A stretch of DNA of 64,000 nt from Arthrobacter pullicola (GTDB taxonomy: Bacteria; Actinomycetota; Actinomycetes; Actinomycetales; Micrococcaceae), in the NCBI RefSeq assembly GCF_014836875.1, contig NZ_JACSQC010000005.1, forward strand, positions 1 through 64,000, in the 5' to 3' direction. A program made the translations under genes and the position numbers. Positions 1 to 14,802 of the stretch are shown piece after piece; position 1 is the first letter of the stretch, and every line of letters starts with the position of its first letter. The notes beneath the pieces are model-generated. The model saw only the letters and a program-made list of their open reading frames with translations. It ran no database searches and was not told the origin of the DNA.

Positions 1-1902
1 CCGGTGCGCGGCAACGGCAAGATCATGCAGGAACTCGAAGCGTTCTTCCGCGGTGCCGGCTGGAACGTGATCAAGGTTGTCTGGGGCCGGGAGTGGGATT
101 CCCTGCTGGAGAAGGACAACGACGGCGCGCTGGTGGACATCATGAACTCCACCCTCGACGGCGATTACCAGACGTACAAGGCCGAGTCCGGCGGGTTCGT
201 GCGGGAGCACTTCTTCGGCAAGACCCCGCAGACCAAGGACATGGTCGCTGACCTTTCCGACCAGGACATTTGGAACCTCAAGCGCGGCGGGCATGATTAC
301 CGCAAGGTTTACGCCGCGTACAAGGCTGCCACTGAGTTCAAGGGCAAGCCCACGGTGATCCTGGCGCACACGGTCAAGGGCTACGGCCTGGGCACGCATT
401 TCGAGGGCCGGAACGCGACGCACCAGATGAAGAAGCTGACCTTGGCGGATCTCAAGGCGTTCCGTGACCACCTGCGGATCCCGATTACGGATGAGCAGCT
501 CGAAGCCGATCCGTACGCCCCGCCGTACTTCCACCCCGGTGCTGATTCGCCGGAGATCAAGTACCTGCTCGAGCGCCGCCGCGAGCTCGGCGGCAACGTT
601 CCGGAGCGCCGCGAGAAGCACGCCCCGGTGAAACTGCCCTCGGCAGACTCCTACGCCGTCGCCAAGAAGGGTTCCGGCAAGCAGATGGCGGCCACCACCA
701 TGGCCTTCGTCCGGCTGCTCAAGGACCTCATGCGGGACAAGGACTTCGGTGACCGGCTGGTCCCCATCGTGCCGGACGAATCGCGCACCTTCGGCATGGA
801 TGCCTTCTTCCCGAGCGCGAAGATCTACAACCCTGACGGCCAGAACTATCTCTCCGTTGACCGCGACCTGATGCTGGCCTACAAGGAATCTCCCGCCGGA
901 AAGCTGATCCACCCCGGAATCAACGAGGCTGGTGCCGTGGCGGCGTTCACCGCTGCCGGCACCTCCTACGCCACCCACGGCGAGCCGCTGGTTCCGGTCT
1001 ACGTGTTCTACTCGATGTTCGGCTTCCAGCGCACGGGCGACTCCTTCTGGGCGGCTGCCGACCAGCTGACCCGGGGATTTGTCATCGGGGCCACCGCCGG
1101 CCGCACCACCCTGACCGGTGAAGGCCTGCAGCATGCGGACGGGCATTCCCCGATCCTGGCCTCCACCAACCCCGCGGTGAAGACCTACGACCCGGCCTAC
1201 GGCTACGAGATCGGGCACATCATGCGCCACGGCCTCGAGGAGATGTATGGCGAGGGATCCGCGGACCGGAACCTGATGTACTACCTAACGGTCTACAACG
1301 AACCCATTATCCAGCCGGCCGAGCCGGAGAACCTGGACGTGGACGGACTGCTCCGGGGGATTTACCGGGTATCCGAATCGCCGGCAGAGGGGCCAAAGTG
1401 CCAGCTTCTGGCGTCCGGTGTCTCCGTTCCCTGGGCACTGGAAGCCCAGAAGCTGCTCGCTGAGGACTGGGGAGTTTCGGCAGACGTCTGGTCGGTGACG
1501 TCCTGGACCGAGCTGCGCCGCGACGGCCTGGCCGCCGAGGAAGAAGCCTTCCTGAACCCGGATGCCCAGCCGCGCGTGCCGTTCGTGACGCAGCAGCTTG
1601 CCGGCGCTGAAGGCCCCGTCATAGCCGTCACCGACTACATGAAGGCCGTTCCGGACCAGATCCGGCAGTTCGTGCCGAACGAGTTCGCCACGCTTGGGGC
1701 CGATGGGTTCGGCTTTTCGGATACCCGTGCCGCAGCCCGCCGATACTTCAAGAACGACACCCACTCCATGGTGGTCCGCGCCCTGCAGCTGCTCGCCGTC
1801 CGCGGATCGGTGGGATCCGATGTCCCCGCGTACGCTATGGACCGCTACAAACTCCTGGACGTAAATGCCGGGACCACCGGCGGTGCCGGCGGGGACGCGT
1901 AA
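1..1902 (+). CDS. aceE: Pyruvate dehydrogenase E1 component, 3' part (5' end outside window)
   Basis: E1 decarboxylates pyruvate with thiamine diphosphate and passes the acetyl group to the lipoyl E2 of the pyruvate dehydrogenase complex in the cytoplasm. The reading frame is already open at base 1, so the apparent start at base 4 is internal; 633 residues are visible and roughly the first 280 of a usual ~900-residue homodimeric E1 are missing. The start of the visible part is the end of the TPP-binding domain. The motif GINEAGA, around visible residue 309, carries the glutamate that activates TPP in the pyrimidine-binding domain, and a full C-terminal domain follows. The gene ends with TAA and is followed by a large hairpin. 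The homodimeric type is usual in Actinobacteria. The only doubt is the unseen N-terminus. Confidence 0.96.
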
Positions 1903-2441: not shown

Positions 2442-2505
2442 ATGAGCCGATCCAAACAGTGTGTAGCTAAAGCGCTTCACACTCATTTTCAGTATGAAAA
2501 CTTAT

Positions 2506-2520
2506 TTCCATATAGCGGAA
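2506..2520. promoter_or_regulatory. Palindromic operator candidate before uricase (site 2)
   Basis: TTCCA-TATAG-CGGAA lies 14 bases before the uricase start, with a further ATGAAAA half-site just upstream (2494-2500). Same layout as sites 1, 3 and 4, so probably bound by the IclR-family regulator encoded at 5284-6039. Confidence 0.55.
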
Positions 2521-2534
2521 GTTTGGAGAAGGTC

Positions 2535-3443
2535 ATGAGCAGCAAAATCATCTTGGGAGACAACCAGTTCGGCAAGGCCGAAGTGCGGGTCGTCAAGATT
2601 TCGAGGGATACCGCCCGGCACGAAATCGAAGACCTGAACGTGACCTCCCAGCTGCGGGGGGATTTTTCCGCAGCTCATCTGGAGGGCGACAACGCCCACG
2701 TCGTGCCCACCGACACGCAGAAGAACACCATCTATGCCTTCGCCCGTGAGGGCATTGGCGCCCCGGAATCACTGCTCCTGCGCCTGGGTGACCACTTCAC
2801 CTCCAGCTTCGACTGGGTCACCGGCGGCCGGTGGGAAGCGGAAGCGTACAGCTGGGACCGGATCCAGGCCCATGGAACGGGGCACGACCACTCCTTCGTG
2901 CGCAACGGCCAGGAGGTCCGTACCGCGGTCCTGGTCCGCGACGGCGAGACCAACCACCTCATCGCCGGACTGCGGGACCTCACCGTCCTGAAGTCGACGG
3001 AATCGGGCTTCACCGGTTATCCGAAGGACCGGTACACCACCCTGCAGGAAACCACCGACCGCATCCTCGCCACGGACATCGCCGCCCGCTGGCGCTTCAA
3101 GACCGGAACGGATTTCAGCAAGGTCGATTTCAATAAGAGCTACAACGACGTCCGGGCGCTGCTGTTGGAGGGTTTCACCGAGAAATACTCCCACGCCCTG
3201 CAGCAGACCCTGTTCGACATGGGAACCAAGGTCCTCGAGGCGCACTCCGACATCGACGAGATCAAGTTCTCCATGCCCAACAAGCACCACTTCCTGGTGG
3301 ACCTCTCCCCGTTCGGCCTGGATAACCCCAACGAGGTTTTCTTCGCTGCGGACCGCCCCTACGGGCTGATCGAAGCCACCGTCAAGCGCGAAGACGCTGC
3401 CGGCGCGGAAAACGCATGGTCCGGCATCGCTGGATTCTGCTGA
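2535..3443 (+). CDS. pucL: Urate oxidase (uricase), cofactor-free
   Basis: Uricase oxidises urate to 5-hydroxyisourate with O2 and releases H2O2 in the cytoplasm, the first step of urate breakdown. The 302-residue protein has the usual length and carries the catalytic-site elements: FGKAEVRVVK (Lys14), VVPTDTQKNT (57-65) and NKHHFLVDL with the active-site His, then RPYGLIEATV near the end. It resembles the Arthrobacter globiformis enzyme throughout, including the GFC terminus. The frame is open 31 codons further upstream, but ATG at 2535 is chosen because GGAGAAGG precedes it at correct spacing and the family begins here. A nucleobase permease follows, and a catalase at 28 kb could remove the H2O2. 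The next enzymes of the pathway (HIU hydrolase, OHCU decarboxylase, allantoinase) are not in the window. Confidence 0.97.
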   Translation: MSSKIILGDNQFGKAEVRVVKISRDTARHEIEDLNVTSQLRGDFSAAHLEGDNAHVVPTDTQKNTIYAFAREGIGAPESLLLRLGDHFTSSFDWVTGGRWEAEAYSWDRIQAHGTGHDHSFVRNGQEVRTAVLVRDGETNHLIAGLRDLTVLKSTESGFTGYPKDRYTTLQETTDRILATDIAARWRFKTGTDFSKVDFNKSYNDVRALLLEGFTEKYSHALQQTLFDMGTKVLEAHSDIDEIKFSMPNKHHFLVDLSPFGLDNPNEVFFAADRPYGLIEATVKREDAAGAENAWSGIAGFC

Positions 3444-3658: not shown

Positions 3659-5182
3659 ATGACCATGAAAATCCGCCGCAACGGCGAAACGCTGCAGCGC
3701 CGCAGCCATCAGCACTCCAGCCGTCCTGAAGACGAACGGCTCCCCCTCGGAAATACCTTCGCCTACGGCCTCCAGCATGTCCTCACCATGTACGGCGGGA
3801 TTATCGCCGTTCCGCTCATCATCGGCCAGGCCGCGGGGCTCTCCTCCGCTGACATTGGAATCCTGATCGCTGCCGCGCTCTTTATGGGCGGACTGGCAAC
3901 CCTGCTGCAGACGCTCGGCCTCCCCTTCTTCGGCTCGCAGCTGCCCCTGGTACAAGGGGTATCCTTCGCCAGCGTGGCCACCATGGTCGCCATTGTGTCC
4001 GGCGGTGGCGGCCTCCCGGCCGTCTTCGGCGCCGTGATCGTCTCCGCCGCGATCGGTCTCCTGATCGCACCGGTGTTCTCCCGGATCGTCCGGTTCTTCC
4101 CGCCGGTGGTCACCGGAACTGTCATCACCACCATCGGGCTGACACTTATGCCCGTCGCCGCAAACTGGGCCATGGGTGGGAACAAGACGGCCGAAGACTA
4201 CGGAAGCGTGTCCAACATCGGCCTCGCCGCCGTCACTCTTGTCCTGGTCCTGCTGCTCAGCAAGGTCGGCAGCGCCACGATCTCCCGGCTGTCCATCCTG
4301 CTGGCGATGGTGATCGGCACCCTCATTGCCGTCGCCGCCGGTGTCGCAGACTTCTCCAAGGTCGGTGAGGGCCCGATTGTGGCTTTTCCGACGCCGTTCC
4401 ACCTGGGAGCGCCTACGTTTGAAATCGCCGCCATTATCTCGATGCTGATCGTGGTCCTGGTGATCCTCACCGAAACCATGGCGGACATCCTGGCTGTCGG
4501 CGAGATCGTGGAGACCAAGACGGACTCCAAGCGGATCGCCGCAGGGCTGCGGGCGGACATGGCCTCCAGCCTGGTGGCCCCGGTTTTTGGTTCCTTCACC
4601 CAGAGCGCCTTCGCCCAGAACGTGGGGCTGGTGGCAGTCACCAAAATCAAGAGCCGCTACGTGGTGGCTGCCGGCGGCGTCATCCTGGTCCTGCTGGGAC
4701 TGCTGCCCATCATGGGCCGCCTCATCGCCGCCGTCCCCACCGCTGTACTGGGCGGGGCCGGAATCGTCCTGTTCGGAACGGTCGCAGCCAGCGGAATCCG
4801 CACCCTGGCCAAGGTCGAGTACAAGAACAACATGAACCTGATCATCGTGGCCACCTCCATCGGGTTCGGCATGCTCCCGATTGCCGCACCGACCTTCTAC
4901 GATGCCTTCCCTGCCTGGTTCGGCACGATCTTCCACTCCGGCATCAGCTCATCGGCGCTCATGGCGATCGCCCTGAATCTGCTCTTCAACCACCTCAAGG
5001 CAGGGAACTCGGAAAACTCCTCGGTCTTCGCTGCCGGCACCGGCAGGGTCATCCGCGAGGAGGACCTGCGGTGCCTGGCCGAAGGAGACCGCTATGAGAA
5101 CGGCCAGCTGATCGACTGCAACGGCAACGTCGTCCCTGTCGATCCGGAGGCACCCAAACCAGCCGGGACCGCCGGGACGTAA
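3659..5182 (+). CDS. NCS2-family nucleobase:cation symporter (xanthine/urate/uracil type)
   Basis: This 507-residue inner-membrane protein imports a nucleobase with a cation. It has the NCS2 signature residues: a QH pair in the first membrane segment (GLQHVLTMYGG, residues 38-47) and the NAT motif QNVGLVAVTK starting at Gln320. Many hydrophobic helices fill residues 35-450. Its position 215 bases after uricase points to urate or xanthine, but substrate cannot be read from the motifs alone, and uracil permeases share them. AAGGAAG lies 6 bases before ATG 3659; a second ATG two codons later is possible. A bidirectional terminator follows. Confidence 0.92.
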   Translation: MTMKIRRNGETLQRRSHQHSSRPEDERLPLGNTFAYGLQHVLTMYGGIIAVPLIIGQAAGLSSADIGILIAAALFMGGLATLLQTLGLPFFGSQLPLVQGVSFASVATMVAIVSGGGGLPAVFGAVIVSAAIGLLIAPVFSRIVRFFPPVVTGTVITTIGLTLMPVAANWAMGGNKTAEDYGSVSNIGLAAVTLVLVLLLSKVGSATISRLSILLAMVIGTLIAVAAGVADFSKVGEGPIVAFPTPFHLGAPTFEIAAIISMLIVVLVILTETMADILAVGEIVETKTDSKRIAAGLRADMASSLVAPVFGSFTQSAFAQNVGLVAVTKIKSRYVVAAGGVILVLLGLLPIMGRLIAAVPTAVLGGAGIVLFGTVAASGIRTLAKVEYKNNMNLIIVATSIGFGMLPIAAPTFYDAFPAWFGTIFHSGISSSALMAIALNLLFNHLKAGNSENSSVFAAGTGRVIREEDLRCLAEGDRYENGQLIDCNGNVVPVDPEAPKPAGTAGT

Positions 5183-5283: not shown

Positions 5284-6039
5284 TCAGTGCTGGTTCAGTT
5301 CCGCGGAAATGGCCTGCGCAGCCTCCCGCAGCAGGGGAACGGCCCGCTTGGCGAAGGCTTCGTCAACGCGGGAGACCGGACCGGACACGGAAATCGCGGC
5401 AGGAGTCGGGGCGCCGGGGATTGCCATCGCGAAACACCGGACACCGATCTCCTGTTCCTCCTCATCAACGGAGTAACCGCGTTCGCGGATCAGATTCAGA
5501 TCCGCGAGCAGTGACTCGACATCGCCGATGCTCTTCGGGGTCGGGGTGGGCAGGCCCTTGCGCGCAGCGATCCCGCGCACTGTGTCGTCGTCGAGCTCGG
5601 CCAGGATGGCCTTGCCCATTCCGGTTGCATGCATGTACCCGCGCCGGCCCACCTCGGTGAACATCCGCATGGAGTGCAGCGAGGGGACCTGGGCCACGTA
5701 GAGGACCATGTCGGAGTCCAGGACTGCCATGTTGGCGGTCTCCCCCAGCTGGTCCACCAGGGACTTCAGCTGGGGCCGGGCCAGGGCGCCGAGCTGTTTG
5801 TTCGCTCCTTCGCCCAGCCGGATCAGGCGGGGCCCCAGGGCGTAGCGGCGGTTCGGCAGCTGCCGGATGTAGCCAAGCGTGACCAGGGTGCGCAGCAGCC
5901 GGTGGATCGTGGGGAGGGGCAGGTCAGTGGAGGCTGAAAGTTCGCTGAGGGTTACGTCTCCCCCGGCATCGGTGATGAGCTCCAGCAGCTCGAATACGCG
6001 TTCAACAGACTGCACGCCGCCCGGGGCTTTTTCGCCCAT
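5284..6039 (-). CDS. IclR-family transcriptional regulator (AllR-like)
   Basis: IclR-family proteins bind DNA as dimers and respond to small acids such as glyoxylate or to allantoin-related compounds. The 251-residue protein has a winged helix-turn-helix at about residues 10-70 (SVERVFELLELI, then LPLPTIHRLLRTL) and a C-terminal effector domain (75-250) with the family sequence MHATGMGKAILAEL and GYSVDEEEQEIGVRCFA. It is divergent from the malic enzyme operon and lies among urate and glyoxylate genes, so it is very probably their local regulator. The shared TTCCA-N5-TGRAA palindrome upstream of those genes and of its own gene (6077-6091) is the likely operator. ATG 6039 follows an AGGAG sequence. 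Effector is inferred, not shown. Confidence 0.93.
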   Translation of the reverse strand: MGEKAPGGVQSVERVFELLELITDAGGDVTLSELSASTDLPLPTIHRLLRTLVTLGYIRQLPNRRYALGPRLIRLGEGANKQLGALARPQLKSLVDQLGETANMAVLDSDMVLYVAQVPSLHSMRMFTEVGRRGYMHATGMGKAILAELDDDTVRGIAARKGLPTPTPKSIGDVESLLADLNLIRERGYSVDEEEQEIGVRCFAMAIPGAPTPAAISVSGPVSRVDEAFAKRAVPLLREAAQAISAELNQH

Positions 6040-6091: not shown

Positions 6092-6178
6092 TTACTCTAT
6101 CGAGCTTCCCTGCGTAGCGCAGGTTTCCTGTGAACTTACTTCCCAAGTGGGTTGTATTTCCACAGAGTAGATAATAAT

Positions 6179-6193
6179 GTCCATAATACGAAA
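6179..6193. promoter_or_regulatory. Palindromic operator candidate before malic enzyme operon (site 3b)
   Basis: GTCCA-TAATA-CGAAA has the same layout and the same TAATA centre as site 4 (9895-9909). It ends about 61 bases before the malic enzyme start. Confidence 0.5.
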
Positions 6194-6254
6194 TAACCCA
6201 GAGATCCCGAGCAGACCAAGCCCTCATCGAGGGCTCACACATGGAGGAATCCCA

Positions 6255-7667
6255 ATGGCAAATCCCGGCCCCGGCAACTCGATCACCCTGCGGGTGGAGG
6301 CACCCTCCGGCTTCACCGCCACCAGCGAACTGGCGGCTGCCGCTGCTGCCGCCGGCGCTGCCGTCACCGCCCTGGACGTCACCGAGTCCCGCCACGAAAC
6401 CATCGTCGTCGACGTCACGTGCGACACCACCGGCGATGAGCACGCCCGCCAGGTGGAGGACGCCCTCAACCGCCTGGAAGGTGTCACCGTCCGCAACGTT
6501 TCGGACCGGACGTTCCTGATGCACCTCGGCGGCAAGCTCCAGGTAACACCGAAGGTCACACTGAACAACCGCGATGATCTTTCCCGTGCCTACACGCCCG
6601 GCGTTGCCCGGGTCTGCCTGGCCATCGCGGAAAATCCCGACGCCGCCCGCAACCTGACCATAAAGCGCAACACCATCGCCGTCGTCACCGATGGGTCCGC
6701 CGTCCTGGGCCTGGGCAACATCGGGCCGGCCGCGGCACTGCCGGTCATGGAAGGCAAGGCCGCCCTGTTCAAGCAGTTCGCCAATGTGGACGCCTGGCCG
6801 GTGTGCCTGGATACGCAGGACACCGAGGAGATCATCCGGATCGTCAAGGCGCTGGCACCCGTTTACGGCGGTGTGAACCTGGAGGACATCGCGGCGCCGC
6901 GCTGCTTCGAAATCGAAAACCGGCTCCGCGAGGAACTGGACATTCCCGTCTTCCATGACGATCAGCACGGAACCGCCATCGTCACGCTGGCCGCCCTGGT
7001 CAATGCGCTGCGGGTGGTTGGCAAGGAGCTCTCCGAAGTCCGGATTGTCGTCTCCGGCGTCGGCGCGGCGGGATCAGCCATCATTGCGCTGCTCAAAGCC
7101 CAGGGTGCACAGCACATCATTGCCGCGGGCCGCTCAGGGGCCATTCACTCCGGCGTCAGCTACGACGACGATCACCGGGCCTGGATCGCCGCGAACACCA
7201 ATGAGGAAGGGTTCTCCGGCACCCTGCACGAGGCCCTGACCGGCGCAGACGTCTTCATTGGCGTGAGCGCACCCCACGTCATCGGCGAAGAGCAGGTCGC
7301 CGCCATGGCGGACAAGGCCATCGTTTTCGCCATGGCCAACCCCACCCCGGAGATCGACCCCGCCGTCGCCGCCCGGCACGCCGCCGTCGTCGCCACCGGA
7401 CGCAGCGACTTCCCGAACCAGATCAATAATGTCCTGGCCTTCCCCGGATTCTTCCGCGGCCTGCTGGACGCCGGAGTTTCCGACATCACTCCGGAGATGC
7501 TGGTGGCCGCCGCCCAGGCGATCGCCGACCGGGTGGCCGATGACGAGCTCAACGCCAGCTACATCATTCCGAGCGTTTTCGACCCCCACGTCGCAGCCGA
7601 CGTCGCCGCCGCCGTCGCCGGTGCAGCCCACTCTGCCCGCACCGCCGCTGAAGAACTGGTCGGCTGA
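6255..7667 (+). CDS. NAD(P)-dependent malic enzyme with N-terminal ACT-like domain
   Basis: Malic enzyme converts malate to pyruvate and CO2 with reduction of NAD(P). The 470-residue protein has an N-terminal ACT-like domain (about 9-80), then the malic core: YTPGVARVC with Tyr113, MEGKA with Lys168, metal ligands around Glu210/Asp211 and HDDQHGT (234-240), and a Rossmann motif GVGAAG (268-273). The frame extends 26 codons upstream, but ATG 6255 has GGAGGAA at proper spacing. It is the first gene of an operon with a CitE-like aldolase (3-base gap) and ureidoglycine aminohydrolase. This placement suggests it handles malate formed from glyoxylate. NAD versus NADP preference cannot be told. Confidence 0.93.
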
Positions 7668-7670
7668 GGC

Positions 7671-8945
7671 ATGGCAAAACACCTCGCTTCCCTGACCCCC
7701 CAGGACCTAGACCGGATCAATGCGTCCCTCGAGGGCACGGACCGCTTCCTGGAACAGAACTACCCGGGCGACGACGGCACCCGCCAGCCGATCCACACCG
7801 TCTACGTACCCGCGGACCGGTTCACGCCGTCGTTCGCTGCTGACTGGGGAGCCCAGGCCGCGGCCGCGGTGGAAGACCGCGGCGGCCTGGAACGGCTCGG
7901 TGGACTGCTGGGCCTGGAACCGGAACTCGGAACCGCCGTGGCCTCCCGGGTTGCCCGGAAACTGGCCGAGGAGCCCATCGAGGACCTCCGCCTGGACTTC
8001 GAGGACGGCTACGGCGACCGCGGCGACGATGCCGAGGACGAGGACACGGTCGCGGCCGCCACGGCGGTGGCCGCAGCGGTGCAGGCCGGGACGGCACCGC
8101 CCTTCATCGGCATCCGGTTCAAGTGCTTCGAAGCACCCACCCGCGCCCGCGGGCTGCGGACCCTCGATCTGTTCGTTTCCACCCTGGCCCGCGCCGGGGA
8201 GCTCCCGGCCGGGCTGGTCCTCACGCTGCCCAAGGTCACCACTGTGGACCAGGTCAAGGCCATGGAAGACGCCGTCTCCCGCCTGGAGAAAATTCATTCC
8301 CTGCCCTCGGGCCGGCTGAAGTTCGAGGTCCAGGTGGAAACACCGCAGCTGATCCTCGGTGCGGACGGCACCTCGCCGGTCGCCCAGCTCCCGCACGCTG
8401 TCCCGGGGCGGATCAGTGCGCTGCACTACGGCACGTATGACTACTCGGCCTCGCTGCAGGTCGCCGCGGAATACCAGTCGATGGAACATCCCGTGGCGGA
8501 CCTCGCCAAGGAGATCATGCAGCTGGCAGTGGCCGGCACGGGCATCCGGCTCTCCGATGGATCCACGAACGTTATCCCCGTCGGCGACAACACGGAGAAC
8601 GCCTGGAAACTGCACGGCAGGCTGGTGCGCAGGTCACTGGAACGGGGTTACTACCAGGGCTGGGACCTGCACGCAGCCCAGCTGCCGAGCCGGTTCACTG
8701 CCACTTATGCCTTCTACCGCGAGGGCCTGCCCGCGGCCGCACTCCGCCTGCGCAACTACGTTGAGCAGACCGGAAGCGGTGTGATGGATGAACCTGCCAC
8801 GGCACGTGCCCTGGCCGGATTCATTCTCCGGGGCGTCCAGTGCGGTGCCGTGAGCGCCGAAGAAGTCCTGTCCCAGGCCGGCGTCGGGCTGTCCCAGCTC
8901 ACCACGCTGGCCCATCCACGGCTTGCCAGCCCGGCCGTCAATTAA
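7671..8945 (+). CDS. CitE/HpcH-HpaI superfamily aldolase-like protein (DUF6986-like)
   Basis: This 424-residue protein belongs to the TIM-barrel superfamily of citrate lyase beta subunit, malyl-CoA lyase and malate synthase, but is longer than ordinary CitE (about 290). Visible landmarks are LRLDFEDGYG (Asp109, Glu111, Asp112), a barrel strand LVLTLPKV (Lys188), FEVQVETPQLI (Glu223), ALHYGTYDYSAS (Asp257) and GWDLHAAQL (His334), which match the Arg/Glu/Asp metal-binding layout and the terminal HPxQ motif of CitE. It starts 3 bases after malic enzyme and precedes ureidoglycine aminohydrolase. I infer a C-C lyase or condensing activity on glyoxylate that yields malate for the neighbour; the exact reaction is unknown. 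Assignment to DUF6986 is from memory of the family and less certain than the superfamily. Confidence 0.75.
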   Translation: MAKHLASLTPQDLDRINASLEGTDRFLEQNYPGDDGTRQPIHTVYVPADRFTPSFAADWGAQAAAAVEDRGGLERLGGLLGLEPELGTAVASRVARKLAEEPIEDLRLDFEDGYGDRGDDAEDEDTVAAATAVAAAVQAGTAPPFIGIRFKCFEAPTRARGLRTLDLFVSTLARAGELPAGLVLTLPKVTTVDQVKAMEDAVSRLEKIHSLPSGRLKFEVQVETPQLILGADGTSPVAQLPHAVPGRISALHYGTYDYSASLQVAAEYQSMEHPVADLAKEIMQLAVAGTGIRLSDGSTNVIPVGDNTENAWKLHGRLVRRSLERGYYQGWDLHAAQLPSRFTATYAFYREGLPAAALRLRNYVEQTGSGVMDEPATARALAGFILRGVQCGAVSAEEVLSQAGVGLSQLTTLAHPRLASPAVN

Positions 8946-8958
8946 GAGGAGCACCTTG

Positions 8959-9771
8959 ATGAGCAATTATTTCTACCCGCAGGGCGGCCTGCCGCCCCAG
9001 ACCCAGCTCCTGACCGACCGCGCCGTGGTCAAGGAGGCCTACACCGTCATCCCCAAGGGTGTGCTGCGCGACATTGTCACCTCCAACCTCCCGGGATGGG
9101 AGAACACCCGGTCCTGGATCCTCGCCCGTCCCATCGCCGGCTTCGCCACCACCTTCAGCCAGCTCATCGTTGAGGTGGGCCCCGGCGGAGGGTCGGACAA
9201 GCCGGAACCCGAAGCCGGCGTGGAGGGCGTTGTTTTCCTCACCCAGGGCCGGCTGACGCTGGTGCTCGACGGCGAGACCCACGAGCTGGAAGCAGGCGGC
9301 TACGCCTATCTCGCGGCCGGAGCAGACTGGAGCCTGCACAACTCCTCAGATGAAATCGCCAGCTTCCAGTGGATCCGCAAGGCCTACGAGCCCCTGGAAG
9401 GTTTCACCGCGAAGTCCTTCGTGACCAGTGACCAGGCGGTGGAACCCACCGCTATGCCGGGCACCGACGGTGCCTGGGCCACCACCCGCTTCGCGGACCC
9501 CAACGACCTGGCCCATGACATGCACGTCAATATCGTCACGTTCCGACCCGGTGCCTCCATACCGTTCGCTGAAACCCACGTGATGGAGCACGGCCTCTTT
9601 GTCCTGGAGGGGAAGGCCGTCTACCGCCTCAACGACGACTGGGTCGAGGTGGAGGCCGGGGACTTTATGTGGCTGCGTGCCTTCTGCCCGCAGGCCTGTT
9701 ACGCGGGTGGCCCGGGGAACTTCCGCTACCTGCTCTACAAGGACGTCAACCGGCAGATCCGCCTGACCTAA
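8959..9771 (+). CDS. allE: (S)-ureidoglycine aminohydrolase, bicupin
   Basis: The enzyme releases ammonia from (S)-ureidoglycine to give (S)-ureidoglycolate in allantoin breakdown. The 270-residue protein has two cupin domains (about 60-130 and 185-262). In the second, Glu205, His207, His211 and Gln245 reproduce the spacing of the Mn2+ ligands known in the Escherichia coli enzyme (Glu235, His237, His241, Gln275). An in-frame ATG lies 12 codons upstream, but ATG 8959 has GAGGAG before it and the family start MSNYFYP. It is the third gene of the malic enzyme operon and links this operon to ureide catabolism. Allantoate amidohydrolase and ureidoglycolate lyase are not seen here. Confidence 0.94.
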   Translation: MSNYFYPQGGLPPQTQLLTDRAVVKEAYTVIPKGVLRDIVTSNLPGWENTRSWILARPIAGFATTFSQLIVEVGPGGGSDKPEPEAGVEGVVFLTQGRLTLVLDGETHELEAGGYAYLAAGADWSLHNSSDEIASFQWIRKAYEPLEGFTAKSFVTSDQAVEPTAMPGTDGAWATTRFADPNDLAHDMHVNIVTFRPGASIPFAETHVMEHGLFVLEGKAVYRLNDDWVEVEAGDFMWLRAFCPQACYAGGPGNFRYLLYKDVNRQIRLT

Positions 9772-9894: not shown

Positions 9895-9909
9895 TTCCAT
9901 AATATGAAA
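9895..9909. promoter_or_regulatory. Palindromic operator candidate before hyi (site 4)
   Basis: TTCCA-TAATA-TGAAA ends 49 bases before the hyi start, followed by a further ATGAAAT half-site at 9913-9919. It is the clearest match to the shared palindrome. Confidence 0.55.
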
Positions 9910-9958: not shown

Positions 9959-10759
9959 ATGACGTATTCCGTGAACTGCTCAATCCTTCTGACCGAACTG
10001 CCGCTGCTCGAACGCCCCGCCGCCGCCAAGGCCGCAGGTTTCGACGCCGTCGAGTTCTGGTGGCCCTTCGACACCTCGGTGCCCGCCGACTCCCAGGTCA
10101 CGGAGTTCGAGAACGCCATCACCGACGCCGGCGTCCAGCTCACGGGCCTGAACTTCAACGCCGGCGACATGCCTGCCGGAGACCGCGGACTGGTGTCCTG
10201 GAAGGGCCGCTGCTCCGAATTCAAGGACAACATCGACGTCGTCGCGGGCATCGGCGAGCGCCTGGGCTGCACCTCCTTCAACGCGCTCTACGGCAACCGC
10301 CAGGAGGAATTCACTCCGGAGGAGCAGGACACGCTGGCCGTGAAGAACCTGGCCGCGGCTGCACAGGGCGTCGCCCGCATTGGCGGCACGGTCCTGTTGG
10401 AGCCGGTCAGCGGCGCCGCCCGCTATCCGCTCCTGACGGCAGCGGACGCGCTTGCGGTCATCGCCCGGGTCAAGGAGGAAACCGGCGCGGAGAACATCAA
10501 GCTTCTCGCGGACTTCTACCACCTGGCGGTCAACGGCGACGATGTTGCCGCCGTCATCGAAAACCACGCCAAGGACTTCGGGCACATCCAGATCGCGGAC
10601 AGCCCCGGCCGCGGCGCTCCCGGAACCGGCGCGCTGCCCCTCGGCGAATGGATCGCCCGCAGCCGCGAACTCGGCTACACCGGCCCGATCGGCCTGGAGT
10701 ACAAGGAGCCGGCACAGACCGCCTTCAGCTGGACCATCCGCCAGCCGGTCTCCAACTAA
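9959..10759 (+). CDS. hyi: Hydroxypyruvate isomerase
   Basis: Hyi interconverts hydroxypyruvate and tartronate semialdehyde in the glycerate pathway. It is a 266-residue TIM-barrel protein of the xylose isomerase-like family, with the family start YSVNCSILLTELPLLERP, a catalytic glutamate in VLLEPVSG and a second in GLEYKEP near the C-terminus, and the metal-site region HIQIADSPGR. GAAGGAA precedes the ATG. It is first in an operon with tartronate semialdehyde reductase, glyoxylate carboligase and glycerate kinase, the classical order of the glyoxylate-to-glycerate route, and is preceded by a copy of the shared palindrome. Confidence 0.95.
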   Translation: MTYSVNCSILLTELPLLERPAAAKAAGFDAVEFWWPFDTSVPADSQVTEFENAITDAGVQLTGLNFNAGDMPAGDRGLVSWKGRCSEFKDNIDVVAGIGERLGCTSFNALYGNRQEEFTPEEQDTLAVKNLAAAAQGVARIGGTVLLEPVSGAARYPLLTAADALAVIARVKEETGAENIKLLADFYHLAVNGDDVAAVIENHAKDFGHIQIADSPGRGAPGTGALPLGEWIARSRELGYTGPIGLEYKEPAQTAFSWTIRQPVSN

Positions 10760-10802: not shown

Positions 10803-11681
10803 ATGAGCAACGTTGCAGTCATCGGACTCGGAATCATGGGCCTGCCCATGGCCATCAACCTCGTCAAGGCCGGTCACTCGGTCACCGGGTTCAACCGCAG
10901 CCAGGACAAGATCGACAAGCTCGTCGCCGAAGGCGGCAAGGGCGCCGGCAGTATTGCCGAGGCCGTGAAGGACGCCGACGTCGTCATCACCATGGTGCCG
11001 GACTCCCCCGACGTCGAGGGTGTTGTTTCCGGGCCGGACGGCGTTTTCGCCAACGCCAAGCAGGGCACCCTGTGGATCGATGCCAGCAGCATCCGCCCGG
11101 ACGTCGCCAAGCGGCTTGCCGATGAGGCAAAGGCCGCGGGTATCCGGGCGCTCGACGCACCGGTCTCCGGCGGCGAGCAGGGTGCAATTGATGCGGCCCT
11201 GTCCATCATGGTCGGCGGAGAAGCCGCTGACTTCGAAGCCGCCCAGGACGTGCTGAACGCGGTCGGGAAAACCATCGTCCATGTGGGCCCGGCCGGCTCC
11301 GGCCAGACCGTCAAGGCTGCCAACCAGCTGATCGTCGCCGTCAACATCGAGGTCCTCGGCGAAGCCATCGCCTTCCTGGAGGCCTATGGCGTGGACACCG
11401 ACGCCGCCCTCAAGGTCCTCGGCGGCGGTCTCGCCGGTTCCAAGGTCCTGGACCAGAAGGGACAGAAAATGCTGGACCGCAACTTCGAACCCGGTTTCCG
11501 GCTCGCCCTGCACCACAAGGACCTGGGCATCGTGACCTCCGCCGCCCGCGAGGCCAACGTCGCACTGCCGCTCGGCGCAATCGCCGCCCAGCTCGTGGCC
11601 GCCACGGTCAACCAGGGCGACGGCGGCCTGGACCACTCCGGCCTGTTCAAGCAGACCCTCAAGCTCAGCGGCCGCGAATAA
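10803..11681 (+). CDS. glxR: 2-hydroxy-3-oxopropionate (tartronate semialdehyde) reductase
   Basis: This NAD(P)H-dependent reductase of the beta-hydroxyacid dehydrogenase family converts tartronate semialdehyde to D-glycerate. The 292-residue protein has the dinucleotide motif GLGIMG (8-13), the substrate motif DAPVSGG (118-124) and the catalytic lysine Lys171 in TVKAANQL. The frame is open far upstream inside hyi in another phase, but ATG 10803 with AAAGGAAAC before it gives the exact family N-terminus MSNVAVIGLG. It lies 43 bases after hyi and is followed by gcl. The name glxR here means the enzyme, not the corynebacterial CRP-type regulator of the same name. Confidence 0.96.
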   Translation: MSNVAVIGLGIMGLPMAINLVKAGHSVTGFNRSQDKIDKLVAEGGKGAGSIAEAVKDADVVITMVPDSPDVEGVVSGPDGVFANAKQGTLWIDASSIRPDVAKRLADEAKAAGIRALDAPVSGGEQGAIDAALSIMVGGEAADFEAAQDVLNAVGKTIVHVGPAGSGQTVKAANQLIVAVNIEVLGEAIAFLEAYGVDTDAALKVLGGGLAGSKVLDQKGQKMLDRNFEPGFRLALHHKDLGIVTSAAREANVALPLGAIAAQLVAATVNQGDGGLDHSGLFKQTLKLSGRE

Positions 11682-11768: not shown

Positions 11769-13547
<1,779 letters not shown>

Positions 13548-13555
13548 CAGCTCCC

Positions 13556-13601
13556 GTCCCGGGGCGGCCCTGCGGGGCTGCCCCGGGACACCTGACTTTT
13601 T
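13556..13601 (+). terminator. Hairpin between gcl and glycerate kinase
   Basis: Ten-base perfect arms (GTCCCGGGGC at 13556-13565, complement at 13580-13589) with a G/C-rich inner stem, then TTTTT at 13597-13601. It may partly terminate or stabilise the gcl message before the kinase gene, whose Shine-Dalgarno starts right after the T run. Confidence 0.55.
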
Positions 13602-13617: not shown

Positions 13618-14802
13618 ATGCGCGTGGTCATAGCACCGGACAAGTTCAAGGGTTCGCTGACCGCTCCGGACGTGGTCGCGCACCTGGCCGCCGGCCTCCG
13701 CTCAGTGCCGCTGCCGGTGGGACAAACCTGGGAAATCGACGGCATTCCCGTTGCCGACGGCGGTGAAGGCACCTTGGATGCCGCCGTCGCGACCGGCTTT
13801 ACCCGCCGCAGCGCCCTGGTCAGCGGGCCGACCGGGGAACCCCTGACCGCGGAGTTCGCGGTCCGCGGCGGAGAAGCAGTCATTGAGATGGCCACCGCTT
13901 CCGGGCTCGCCGTCCTTCCCGGGGGCGTCAAGGACGCACTGCGGTCCAGTTCCCGGGGAACCGGAGAGCTGATCCGGGCCGCCCTGGACTCCGGCTGCAC
14001 CCGGATCATTCTTGGCGTCGGAGGCAGTGCCAACACCGATGGCGGGGCGGGGATCCTGCAGGGACTCGGTGCCCGTCTGCTGGACGCGGACGGCCGGGAA
14101 CTCCCCGGCGGCGGAGCAGCCCTGGCCCGGCTCGCAGGCATCGACTCCTCTGCCTTGGACCCCCGGGTGCGGGAAGCACGCTTTGTCCTGGCCAGCGACG
14201 TGGACAATCCGCTGTTGGGACCGGACGGCGCCGCGGTGGTTTTTGGTCCGCAGAAGGGCGCTTGCGCGGAAGACGTCCAACTGCTCGATGCCGCCCTGGC
14301 GAACTTCGTGCAGGTTCTCGGTTCCCACTTCGGACCGCGGGCCCTGGATGCCGCCAACGCTCCCGGGGCAGGAGCCGCCGGGGGAGTCGGCTACGCGGCA
14401 CTCGCGGTCCTCGCCGCTGACCGGAGGCCAGGCATCGACGTCGTCCTGGAATTCACCGGACTGGCAGACCGGTTGTCCGGTGCGGACCTGGTTATTACCG
14501 GCGAAGGCAGCCTCGATGAGCAGAGCCTGCTCGGCAAGACCCCCCTGGGGGTTGCCCGGGCAGCTGCCGCGGCGGGCGTGCCGGCCATCGCGGTCTGCGG
14601 ACGCAGCACCCTGCTCGATCAGCAGCTCCGGGCGGCCGGATTCGACCGCGCCTATGCCCTGACCGATCTGGAACCCGACACGGATAAATGCATGGCCGGC
14701 GCCGGACCGCTCCTGGAACAGGTGGGGTCCGCCATCGCCGGACAGCTTATTGGCGGACCTTTTACGGGTGGATCCCGGCCGGAACCAGCCAAAACCCGCT
14801 GA
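13618..14802 (+). CDS. glxK: Glycerate 2-kinase (GlxK/GarK family)
   Basis: The kinase phosphorylates D-glycerate with ATP, giving 2-phosphoglycerate for glycolysis and closing the glyoxylate route of this cluster. The 394-residue protein has the family N-terminus VVIAPDKFKGSLTA, PVADGGEGTLDA, GVGGSANTDGGAG near residues 137-149 and LVITGEGSLDEQSL near 290-303. A TTG start six codons upstream is open, but ATG 13618 has GAAAGGAAG at ideal spacing and the usual N-terminus. The C-terminal 20 residues are basic and unlike the core. Downstream is an unrelated peroxiredoxin gene, 46 bases away. Confidence 0.95.
   Translation: MRVVIAPDKFKGSLTAPDVVAHLAAGLRSVPLPVGQTWEIDGIPVADGGEGTLDAAVATGFTRRSALVSGPTGEPLTAEFAVRGGEAVIEMATASGLAVLPGGVKDALRSSSRGTGELIRAALDSGCTRIILGVGGSANTDGGAGILQGLGARLLDADGRELPGGGAALARLAGIDSSALDPRVREARFVLASDVDNPLLGPDGAAVVFGPQKGACAEDVQLLDAALANFVQVLGSHFGPRALDAANAPGAGAAGGVGYAALAVLAADRRPGIDVVLEFTGLADRLSGADLVITGEGSLDEQSLLGKTPLGVARAAAAAGVPAIAVCGRSTLLDQQLRAAGFDRAYALTDLEPDTDKCMAGAGPLLEQVGSAIAGQLIGGPFTGGSRPEPAKTR

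Follow-up and report, generated by a model that had tools for sequence, protein, structure and literature searches.

In a passage of PMC6320678, two enzymes are given as known for the conversion of ureidoglycolate. According to the portion of PMC3793230 that deals with them, AllA and DAL3 are ureidoglycolate lyases that release urea, AllA being a cupin-fold, nickel-dependent protein, and UAH is an amidohydrolase that releases ammonia. We analyzed a window of 64,000 nucleotides from Arthrobacter pullicola (assembly GCF_014836875.1, contig NZ_JACSQC010000005.1, positions 1 to 64,000; contig C11 of a 3.62-Mb genome with a completeness of 99.99%), which encodes a DUF6986 (PF22484) protein of 424 amino acids at 7671..8945 (+; Pfam 1.2e-178). 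This protein probably has EC 4.3.2.3 activity, as an (S)-ureidoglycolate lyase that depends on a metal and has no relation to AllA/DAL3. The reaction proposed for it and its position in the pathway are those of AllA/DAL3 (PF04115, EC 4.3.2.3), and it takes the place of allA among the E. coli allantoin genes. The two proteins differ in kind: AllA has 160 amino acids, whereas DUF6986 is a TIM barrel without a PF04115 match. Plant UAH shares the substrate proposed for DUF6986 but releases ammonia (as the same portion of PMC3793230 states).

On the structural side, malyl-CoA lyase (CoA, coenzyme A; R. sphaeroides 4L9Y/4L9Z and M. extorquens 5UGR) has 17% identity to the window protein. It acts on a CoA thioester and cleaves a C-C bond, releasing glyoxylate and acetyl-CoA from malyl-CoA. 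DUF6986 exceeds it in length by about 100 residues and follows the genes of ureide breakdown. The Haloferax malate synthase (3OYX, 3OYZ, 3PUG) carries out acetyl-CoA-dependent malate formation. In the papers searched, DUF6986 is not mentioned, and no listed title or abstract opening credits a CitE-like protein with the ureidoglycolate step; the proposed activity would pair an established reaction with an established fold, a pairing that we did not find described.

The first line of evidence is co-occurrence with the enzymes that produce ureidoglycolate. A set of 296 genomes from the phylum was screened for DUF6986, for the two ureidoglycolate producers (allantoicase and AllE), and for uricase and AllA, and 149 genomes of the window's order were sampled; three DUF6986 genomes were shared by the two samples. 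A genome with allantoicase or AllE, and hence ureidoglycolate production, was counted as a maker. The AllE cut-off was 200 bits, which removed weaker matches in 83 of 87 phylum genomes; in the order sample the AllE search was run at E 1e-20. PF22484 matches below 60 bits were dropped as partial CitE-like proteins, including the one in G013 (55.5 bits, an 89-residue frame at a contig start), which is a remnant or fragment.

Full-length DUF6986 was present in 25 of the phylum genomes, allantoicase in 24, and AllE over the cut-off in four. All 25 genomes with DUF6986 were makers (21 with allantoicase and four with AllE), compared with three of the 271 genomes without it; 25 of the 28 makers had DUF6986, and 268 genomes had neither. 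The order sample (DUF6986 in 32 genomes, AllE in 20, allantoicase in 14) gave the same picture: 32 of 32 DUF6986 genomes were makers versus 2 of 117 without it, and DUF6986 occurred in 32 of the 34 makers (20/20 with AllE and 12/14 with allantoicase). Fisher p values for the association were 2e-33 (phylum) and 2e-30 (order), within a single phylum and uncorrected for common descent. The original prediction had suggested a survey of co-occurrence with AllE; each of the 54 distinct genomes with full-length DUF6986 encoded AllE or allantoicase.

AllE and allantoicase were found together in no genome of either sample. DUF6986 follows both routes, and ureidoglycolate is what the two have in common. 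Within genera, DUF6986 and the maker gene were gained or lost together (g200, G401 vs. G330; g7, G257 vs. G385 and G399; g209, G301 vs. G362). In the window's own genus, genome G387 lacks DUF6986, AllE, and allantoicase alike, yet encodes two malate synthases. Uricase was considered as the determinant of DUF6986 and rejected as the weaker one: it was present in 23 of the 25 DUF6986 genomes (the exceptions being G045 and G288), and 20 of the 43 phylum genomes with uricase lacked DUF6986. None of these 20 had allantoicase or AllE. As a separate observation, uricase genomes without allantoicase or AllE in family f18 (e.g., G041, G011, G195, and G248) have a CitE-like gene roughly 15-19 kb away from uricase, and the match of this gene to PF22484 is weak and partial.

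The gene context was read in 45 diverse loci: the 25 of the phylum sample, five from plasmid records, and those of 15 out of the 29 further order genomes. At least one purine or ureide marker gene lay within 10 kb of DUF6986 in 33 of these loci, and the distance to the maker gene was 3 kb or less in 34 of the 54 genomes. In L165-L167 the row reads OHCU decarboxylase-HIUH-uricase-DUF6986-AllB-allantoicase; in deep lineages it reads AllB-allantoicase-OHCU decarboxylase-HIUH-uricase-DUF6986 (L134 by profile; L133, L137, and L138 by tblastn), and in L134 allantoinase, allantoicase, and OHCU decarboxylase are fused into one protein. All steps from urate to ureidoglycolate are present in these rows, so that only DUF6986 has no step assigned to it.

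Three loci have urease as a neighbor. DUF6986 lies 143 bases before the urease operon in the Gordonia plasmid p174, between uricase and urease in L137 (about 130 bases from the urease genes), and about 590 bases before ureC in L135. These neighbors are consistent with urea as a product. They are less expected if DUF6986 hydrolyzed ureidoglycolate to glyoxylate, CO2, and ammonia, as plant UAH does from the same pathway position (in the account of that enzyme in PMC3793230). Its CitE-like barrel and a metal site of the 2-hydroxyacid-lyase type, not that of an amidohydrolase, also speak against hydrolysis, which we regard as very improbable. Plant UAH and DUF6986 are not known to be homologous.

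DUF6986 precedes AllE in a Tsukamurella plasmid; in Nocardia, the genes that follow it are allantoicase and a PuuE-like gene. On the conjugative plasmid pCZY of Paenarthrobacter ureafaciens (L183, 8950-10227), a divergent DUF6986 gene is flanked on one side by a PuuE-like gene of the polysaccharide-deacetylase type and on the other by an NCS1 permease; this region is perhaps a portable allantoin module.

The known lyase was largely absent from DUF6986 genomes. PF04115 had no match in the window's genome, nor did the window DUF6986 protein match it in Pfam; AllA was absent from 24 of the 25 DUF6986 genomes of the phylum sample (the exception, G288, scored 27.6 bits, the cut-off being 23), and neither E. 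coli AllA nor E. coli AllD had a match in 121 DUF6986 loci. An anticorrelation of AllA and DUF6986 carries no information, as few genomes of the phylum have AllA at all (8 of 296, Fisher p 0.51). Many of the E. coli allantoin genes have a counterpart in the window cluster (allR, gcl, hyi, glxR, glxK, and allE), with DUF6986 replacing allA; allB, allC, and allD are not among its genes.

Without AllA, ureidoglycolate is left with no known enzyme in those 24 of 25 genomes. This argues against DUF6986 being an HpcH/HpaI-type aldolase that joins or transforms glyoxylate or a short 2-oxo acid with a non-CoA partner and so acts as a glyoxylate outlet. HpcH/HpaI members act on free 2-oxo acids, and glyoxylate, the end product of the allantoicase and AllE routes, would be expected wherever either maker occurs, both of which agree with an aldolase. 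Known users of glyoxylate, however, already lie nearby: AceB in 79 of 80 Arthrobacter-group loci, and Gcl in seven and AceB in six of the 45 diverse loci. We find an aldolase quite unlikely.

The window AllE also passes the NCBIfam model "bifunctional allantoicase/(S)-ureidoglycine aminohydrolase," and E. coli AllC had a match in only one of the 121 DUF6986 loci, a count that covers the loci only. Since AllE and allantoicase never occur together, AllC is this rare, and the bifunctional model is passed, the window AllE may act directly on allantoate.

DUF6986 is the middle gene of an operon on the forward strand. It is preceded by malic enzyme (malate to pyruvate; 6255..7667, +; PF00390, N-terminal domain, 4.1e-30; PF03949, 4.6e-20), whose frame is open over 6177-7667 with a probable start at 6255 (upstream bases checked). 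It is followed by AllE, the (S)-ureidoglycine aminohydrolase that produces ureidoglycolate (8959..9771, +; NCBIfam 2.4e-149; frame opens at 8923). The original prediction had recognized these three genes as an operon and tied it to allantoin breakdown. Both points hold: Pfam and NCBIfam confirmed all three genes, the gaps are 3 and 13 bases, and the operon sits inside an Arthrobacter urate/allantoin cluster. The same prediction had the middle protein make malate (or a malyl compound) from glyoxylate, with malic enzyme turning the malate into pyruvate as an outlet beside Gcl.

We weighed whether DUF6986 condenses glyoxylate with acetyl-CoA, as a malate synthase or as a malyl-CoA lyase running in reverse. 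The fold class is the same and the catalytic aspartate and arginine counterparts are kept, and a CitE-like malate synthase is known in Haloferax (passages of PMC3112382 and PMC3832036). Malic enzyme lies within 4.5 kb of DUF6986 in 79 of 80 related loci of the Arthrobacter group (the best 80 of 387 relatives from a contig scan; the exception, L082, is a 3.2-kb contig), and near DUF6986 in 13 of the 45 diverse loci. Six of the 54 DUF6986 genomes had no malate synthase over the cut-off.

The related loci nevertheless count against this role. In 79 of the 80, AceB, the canonical malate synthase A, lies between malic enzyme and DUF6986, and in all 80 AllE is downstream of DUF6986. Having their own AceB in the operon, these relatives do not need DUF6986 for a malate outlet. 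AceB is missing from the operon of the window genome (7667-7671) and of A. luteolus; the window genome has two malate synthases elsewhere, at C7:383 kb (78% identical to the operon AceB) and on C12 (57%). An ordinary malate synthase over the cut-off was found in 48 of the 54 DUF6986 genomes, which also sets them apart from the Haloferax case. Glyoxylate also arises by routes other than ureidoglycolate, and the 268 phylum genomes without makers had no full-length DUF6986. A second DUF6986-AllE operon of the same genome (L116) contains neither malic enzyme nor AceB.

A malate-synthase role for DUF6986 was set aside because of AceB in the relatives' operon and the tracking of ureidoglycolate makers, whether allantoicase or AllE; we consider it unlikely. 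The outlet from glyoxylate through malate to pyruvate beside Gcl remains plausible in the Arthrobacter group, without DUF6986 as the maker of malate. DUF6986 most likely acts one step earlier, where ureidoglycolate is converted to glyoxylate and urea.

The window protein matched PF22484 with 594.6 bits against a cut-off of 27, over positions 3-407 of the 408 of the profile, and its closest named relative, from Arthrobacter luteolus, is 92-93% identical. The family is large, with at least 7,999 relatives scored in the first search. Databases currently label these relatives as aldolase, citrate lyase beta subunit, or "phosphoenolpyruvate kinase." Neither HpcH_HpaI (PF03328) nor the malate synthase A and G family (AceB/GlcB, PF01274) matched the window protein at E 0.001; one distant DUF6986 protein matched PF01274 at 22.9 bits, below the cut-off, and several relatives carry both labels.

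The predicted structure (pLDDT 94) is a TIM barrel with a C-terminal lid and resembles malyl-CoA lyase, which ranked first by sequence profile and by VIA-align; a single-sequence search of the PDB gave a chance match only. The protein contains the motifs DFED (109-112), VETP (222-225), GTYDYSA (254-260), and DLHAAQ (332-337). E223 and D257 align to Glu141 and Asp168, which bind Mg in the R. sphaeroides enzyme (21 residues allowed for the tagged chain), and were invariant in 41 of 41 diverse sequences. Equally invariant were D109, E111, D112, R149, and D373, the candidate counterparts of Asp42, Glu44, Asp45, Arg76, and the lid residue Asp299; these were paired through the order and spacing of the motifs and not through superposed coordinates, and a weak second HMMER match to 5ugr was one residue off at D373. 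The barrel model and the invariant counterparts bear out the CitE/malate-synthase-type fold with a conserved metal site that the sequence had first suggested.

We found no assay of DUF6986, which would suit a protein that regulates or assists the ureide pathway and does not carry out this catalysis. The seven invariant catalytic and metal counterparts argue otherwise, and we hold such a role to be extremely improbable. A coupled ureidoglycolate assay has already been published (described in part of PMC3793230).

The analysis shows the fold of the model, the conservation of residues, the phyletic pattern, and the gene context; the substrate, the direction, the residue roles, and cleavage by a lyase and not a hydrolase are inferred from here on, as follows. 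AllE, or allantoicase in other lineages, would supply ureidoglycolate, and DUF6986 would cut its C-N bond to give glyoxylate and urea. The residue roles are transferred by analogy from malyl-CoA lyase, for which roles of the arginine, the aspartates, and the metal residues have been proposed (in the relevant section of PMC3832036). Mg2+, held by E223 and D257 and with its waters held by E111 and D112, would chelate the 2-hydroxy acid. R149, positioned by D109, would accept the hydroxyl proton as the C-N bond breaks, and the lid aspartate D373 would protonate the leaving urea nitrogen. Urea would thus replace the acetyl-CoA enolate as leaving group: HO-CH(COO-)-NH-CO-NH2 compared with HO-CH(COO-)-CH2-CO-SCoA, a near-isosteric swap of CH2 for NH and of S-CoA for NH2. 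Glyoxylate would then enter either the Gcl-GlxR-Hyi-GlxK route or that of AceB and malic enzyme. It is likely that DUF6986 is a third, independently evolved enzyme that opens ureidoglycolate, a C-C lyase of the malyl-CoA-lyase type turned C-N lyase, and that Actinomycetota, and perhaps some Acidobacteriota and Gemmatimonadota, generally rely on it for this cleavage.

Several points weigh against a ureidoglycolate lyase. Co-occurrence alone cannot fully separate an enzyme that makes glyoxylate from one that uses it, and the six genomes without a malate synthase over the cut-off belong here as well. Five makers lack DUF6986 (G038, G074, and G086 in the phylum sample, and G338 and G381). The contig of G086 is only 4.5 kb long, and G074 has urease near allantoicase. 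Of the 12 diverse loci without a marker gene, eight belong to one genus (f5/g8) and one to Nonomuraea, with no purine marker within 10 kb and some contigs ending early; the others are L132, where a contig end cuts the uricase gene, and L135 and L184, with a urease neighbor. Urease neighbors agree with a urea product without singling it out, because allantoicase also releases urea. By structure, malyl-CoA lyase and CLYBL were tied by VIA-align, and Foldseek's own order placed malate synthase A first. The lid aspartate of the CoA enzymes is kept, so the protein might use CoA. Finally, the Cahn-Ingold-Prelog priorities change between the two substrates, and (S)-ureidoglycolate corresponds in space to (R)-, not (S)-, malyl-CoA. 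By our own reasoning, the 2-oxo acid would sit flipped relative to malyl-CoA lyase, or the leaving group would exit on the other face.

Two observations touch these exceptions. An MBL-fold-hydrolase-like protein was seen by inspection beside AllB, allantoin racemase, and allantoicase in G038, G338, and G381 (L157 11595-12428, L162 8152-8961, and L163 near 8161); it is a possible alternative ureidoglycolate enzyme in makers without DUF6986. The f5/g8 loci are L117-L120, L123, L125, L126, and L140, and the one that is annotated has ROK, LacI, Nudix, and Exo_endo_phos neighbors.

The second full DUF6986 gene of the genome, in L116, is 61% identical to the window copy, and in the tree it stands apart from it with moderate support (91/90). 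Its operon has the order DUF6986-AllE-Hyi-allantoinase and is divergent from an IclR gene of its own. A palindrome search of the promoter regions revealed nothing in common. Counts of 9-mers in these promoter regions, the one before the window operon among them, yielded the site pattern TCCATAATACGRAA. An operator-like site, TCCATAATACGAAA, lies before the malic enzyme-DUF6986-AllE operon (6180..6193, +); it recurs with one mismatch before the hyi-glxR-gcl-glxK group (9896..9909, +) and, weakly, with three mismatches immediately upstream of where urate oxidase probably starts (2507..2520, +). The window contains seven sites at three or fewer mismatches against 1.6 expected, and none of 100 shuffles reached seven; two of the seven overlap and two are far from the cluster. 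The exact site also stands before the second DUF6986 operon, as does exact TCCAYAATACGRAA, which was found in 76 of the 80 Arthrobacter-group loci. A divergent regulator of the IclR/AllR type is encoded next to the window operon (5284..6039, -; PF01614 4.6e-39), and 91 of the 121 DUF6986 loci contain an IclR-type gene that E. coli AllR matches. The shared site is likely the operator of this AllR-type regulator; if so, DUF6986 would belong to the purine regulon.

From left to right, the window cluster has the order urate oxidase, xanthine permease, divergent IclR/AllR-type regulator, malic enzyme, DUF6986, AllE, Hyi, GlxR, Gcl, and glycerate kinase. Urate oxidase (open frame 2442..3443, +; TIGR03383 7.4e-108) and a xanthine/uric acid permease (3659..5182, +; TIGR03173 1.7e-150) lie to the left. 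Downstream of AllE are a hydroxypyruvate isomerase-like protein (Hyi; 9959..10759, +; TIGR03234 2e-70, 237 bits, under the cut-off of 353), tartronate semialdehyde reductase (GlxR; 10803..11681, +, start read from the frame; TIGR01505 1.6e-113), glyoxylate carboligase (Gcl; 11769..13547, +; NF008431, 1110 bits), the glycerate outlet for glyoxylate, and glycerate kinase (GlxK; 13618..14802, +, frame opens at 13600; TIGR00045 2.1e-112).

Elsewhere in the same genome, a 281-residue CitE-like protein (C7:424.7-425.6 kb; L180 10747-11592) ends a second purine cluster, which contains xdh genes, an 8-oxoguanine deaminase-like gene, OHCU decarboxylase, HIUH, a second uricase, and a second permease. 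Two different aceE copies (window 4-1902; C7:693.7-695.6 kb), each adjoining a DUF6986 cluster, lie at contig ends, and the assembly appears to break at them.

If DUF6986 is a ureidoglycolate lyase, a large family would gain a function that replaces labels of the aldolase and citrate-lyase type, and the pathway from purines to glyoxylate would be closed in Arthrobacter and other DUF6986 lineages. In the genome study of Arthrobacter sp. Rue61a, allantoin breakdown was marked as incomplete despite growth on allantoin (in the portion of PMC3534580 on this pathway); if encoded there as well, AllE and DUF6986 would fill that gap. The family would also be a clear case of a change of bond type, from C-C to C-N cleavage, in which the enzyme retained its catalytic residues and accepted a substrate that is nearly isosteric.

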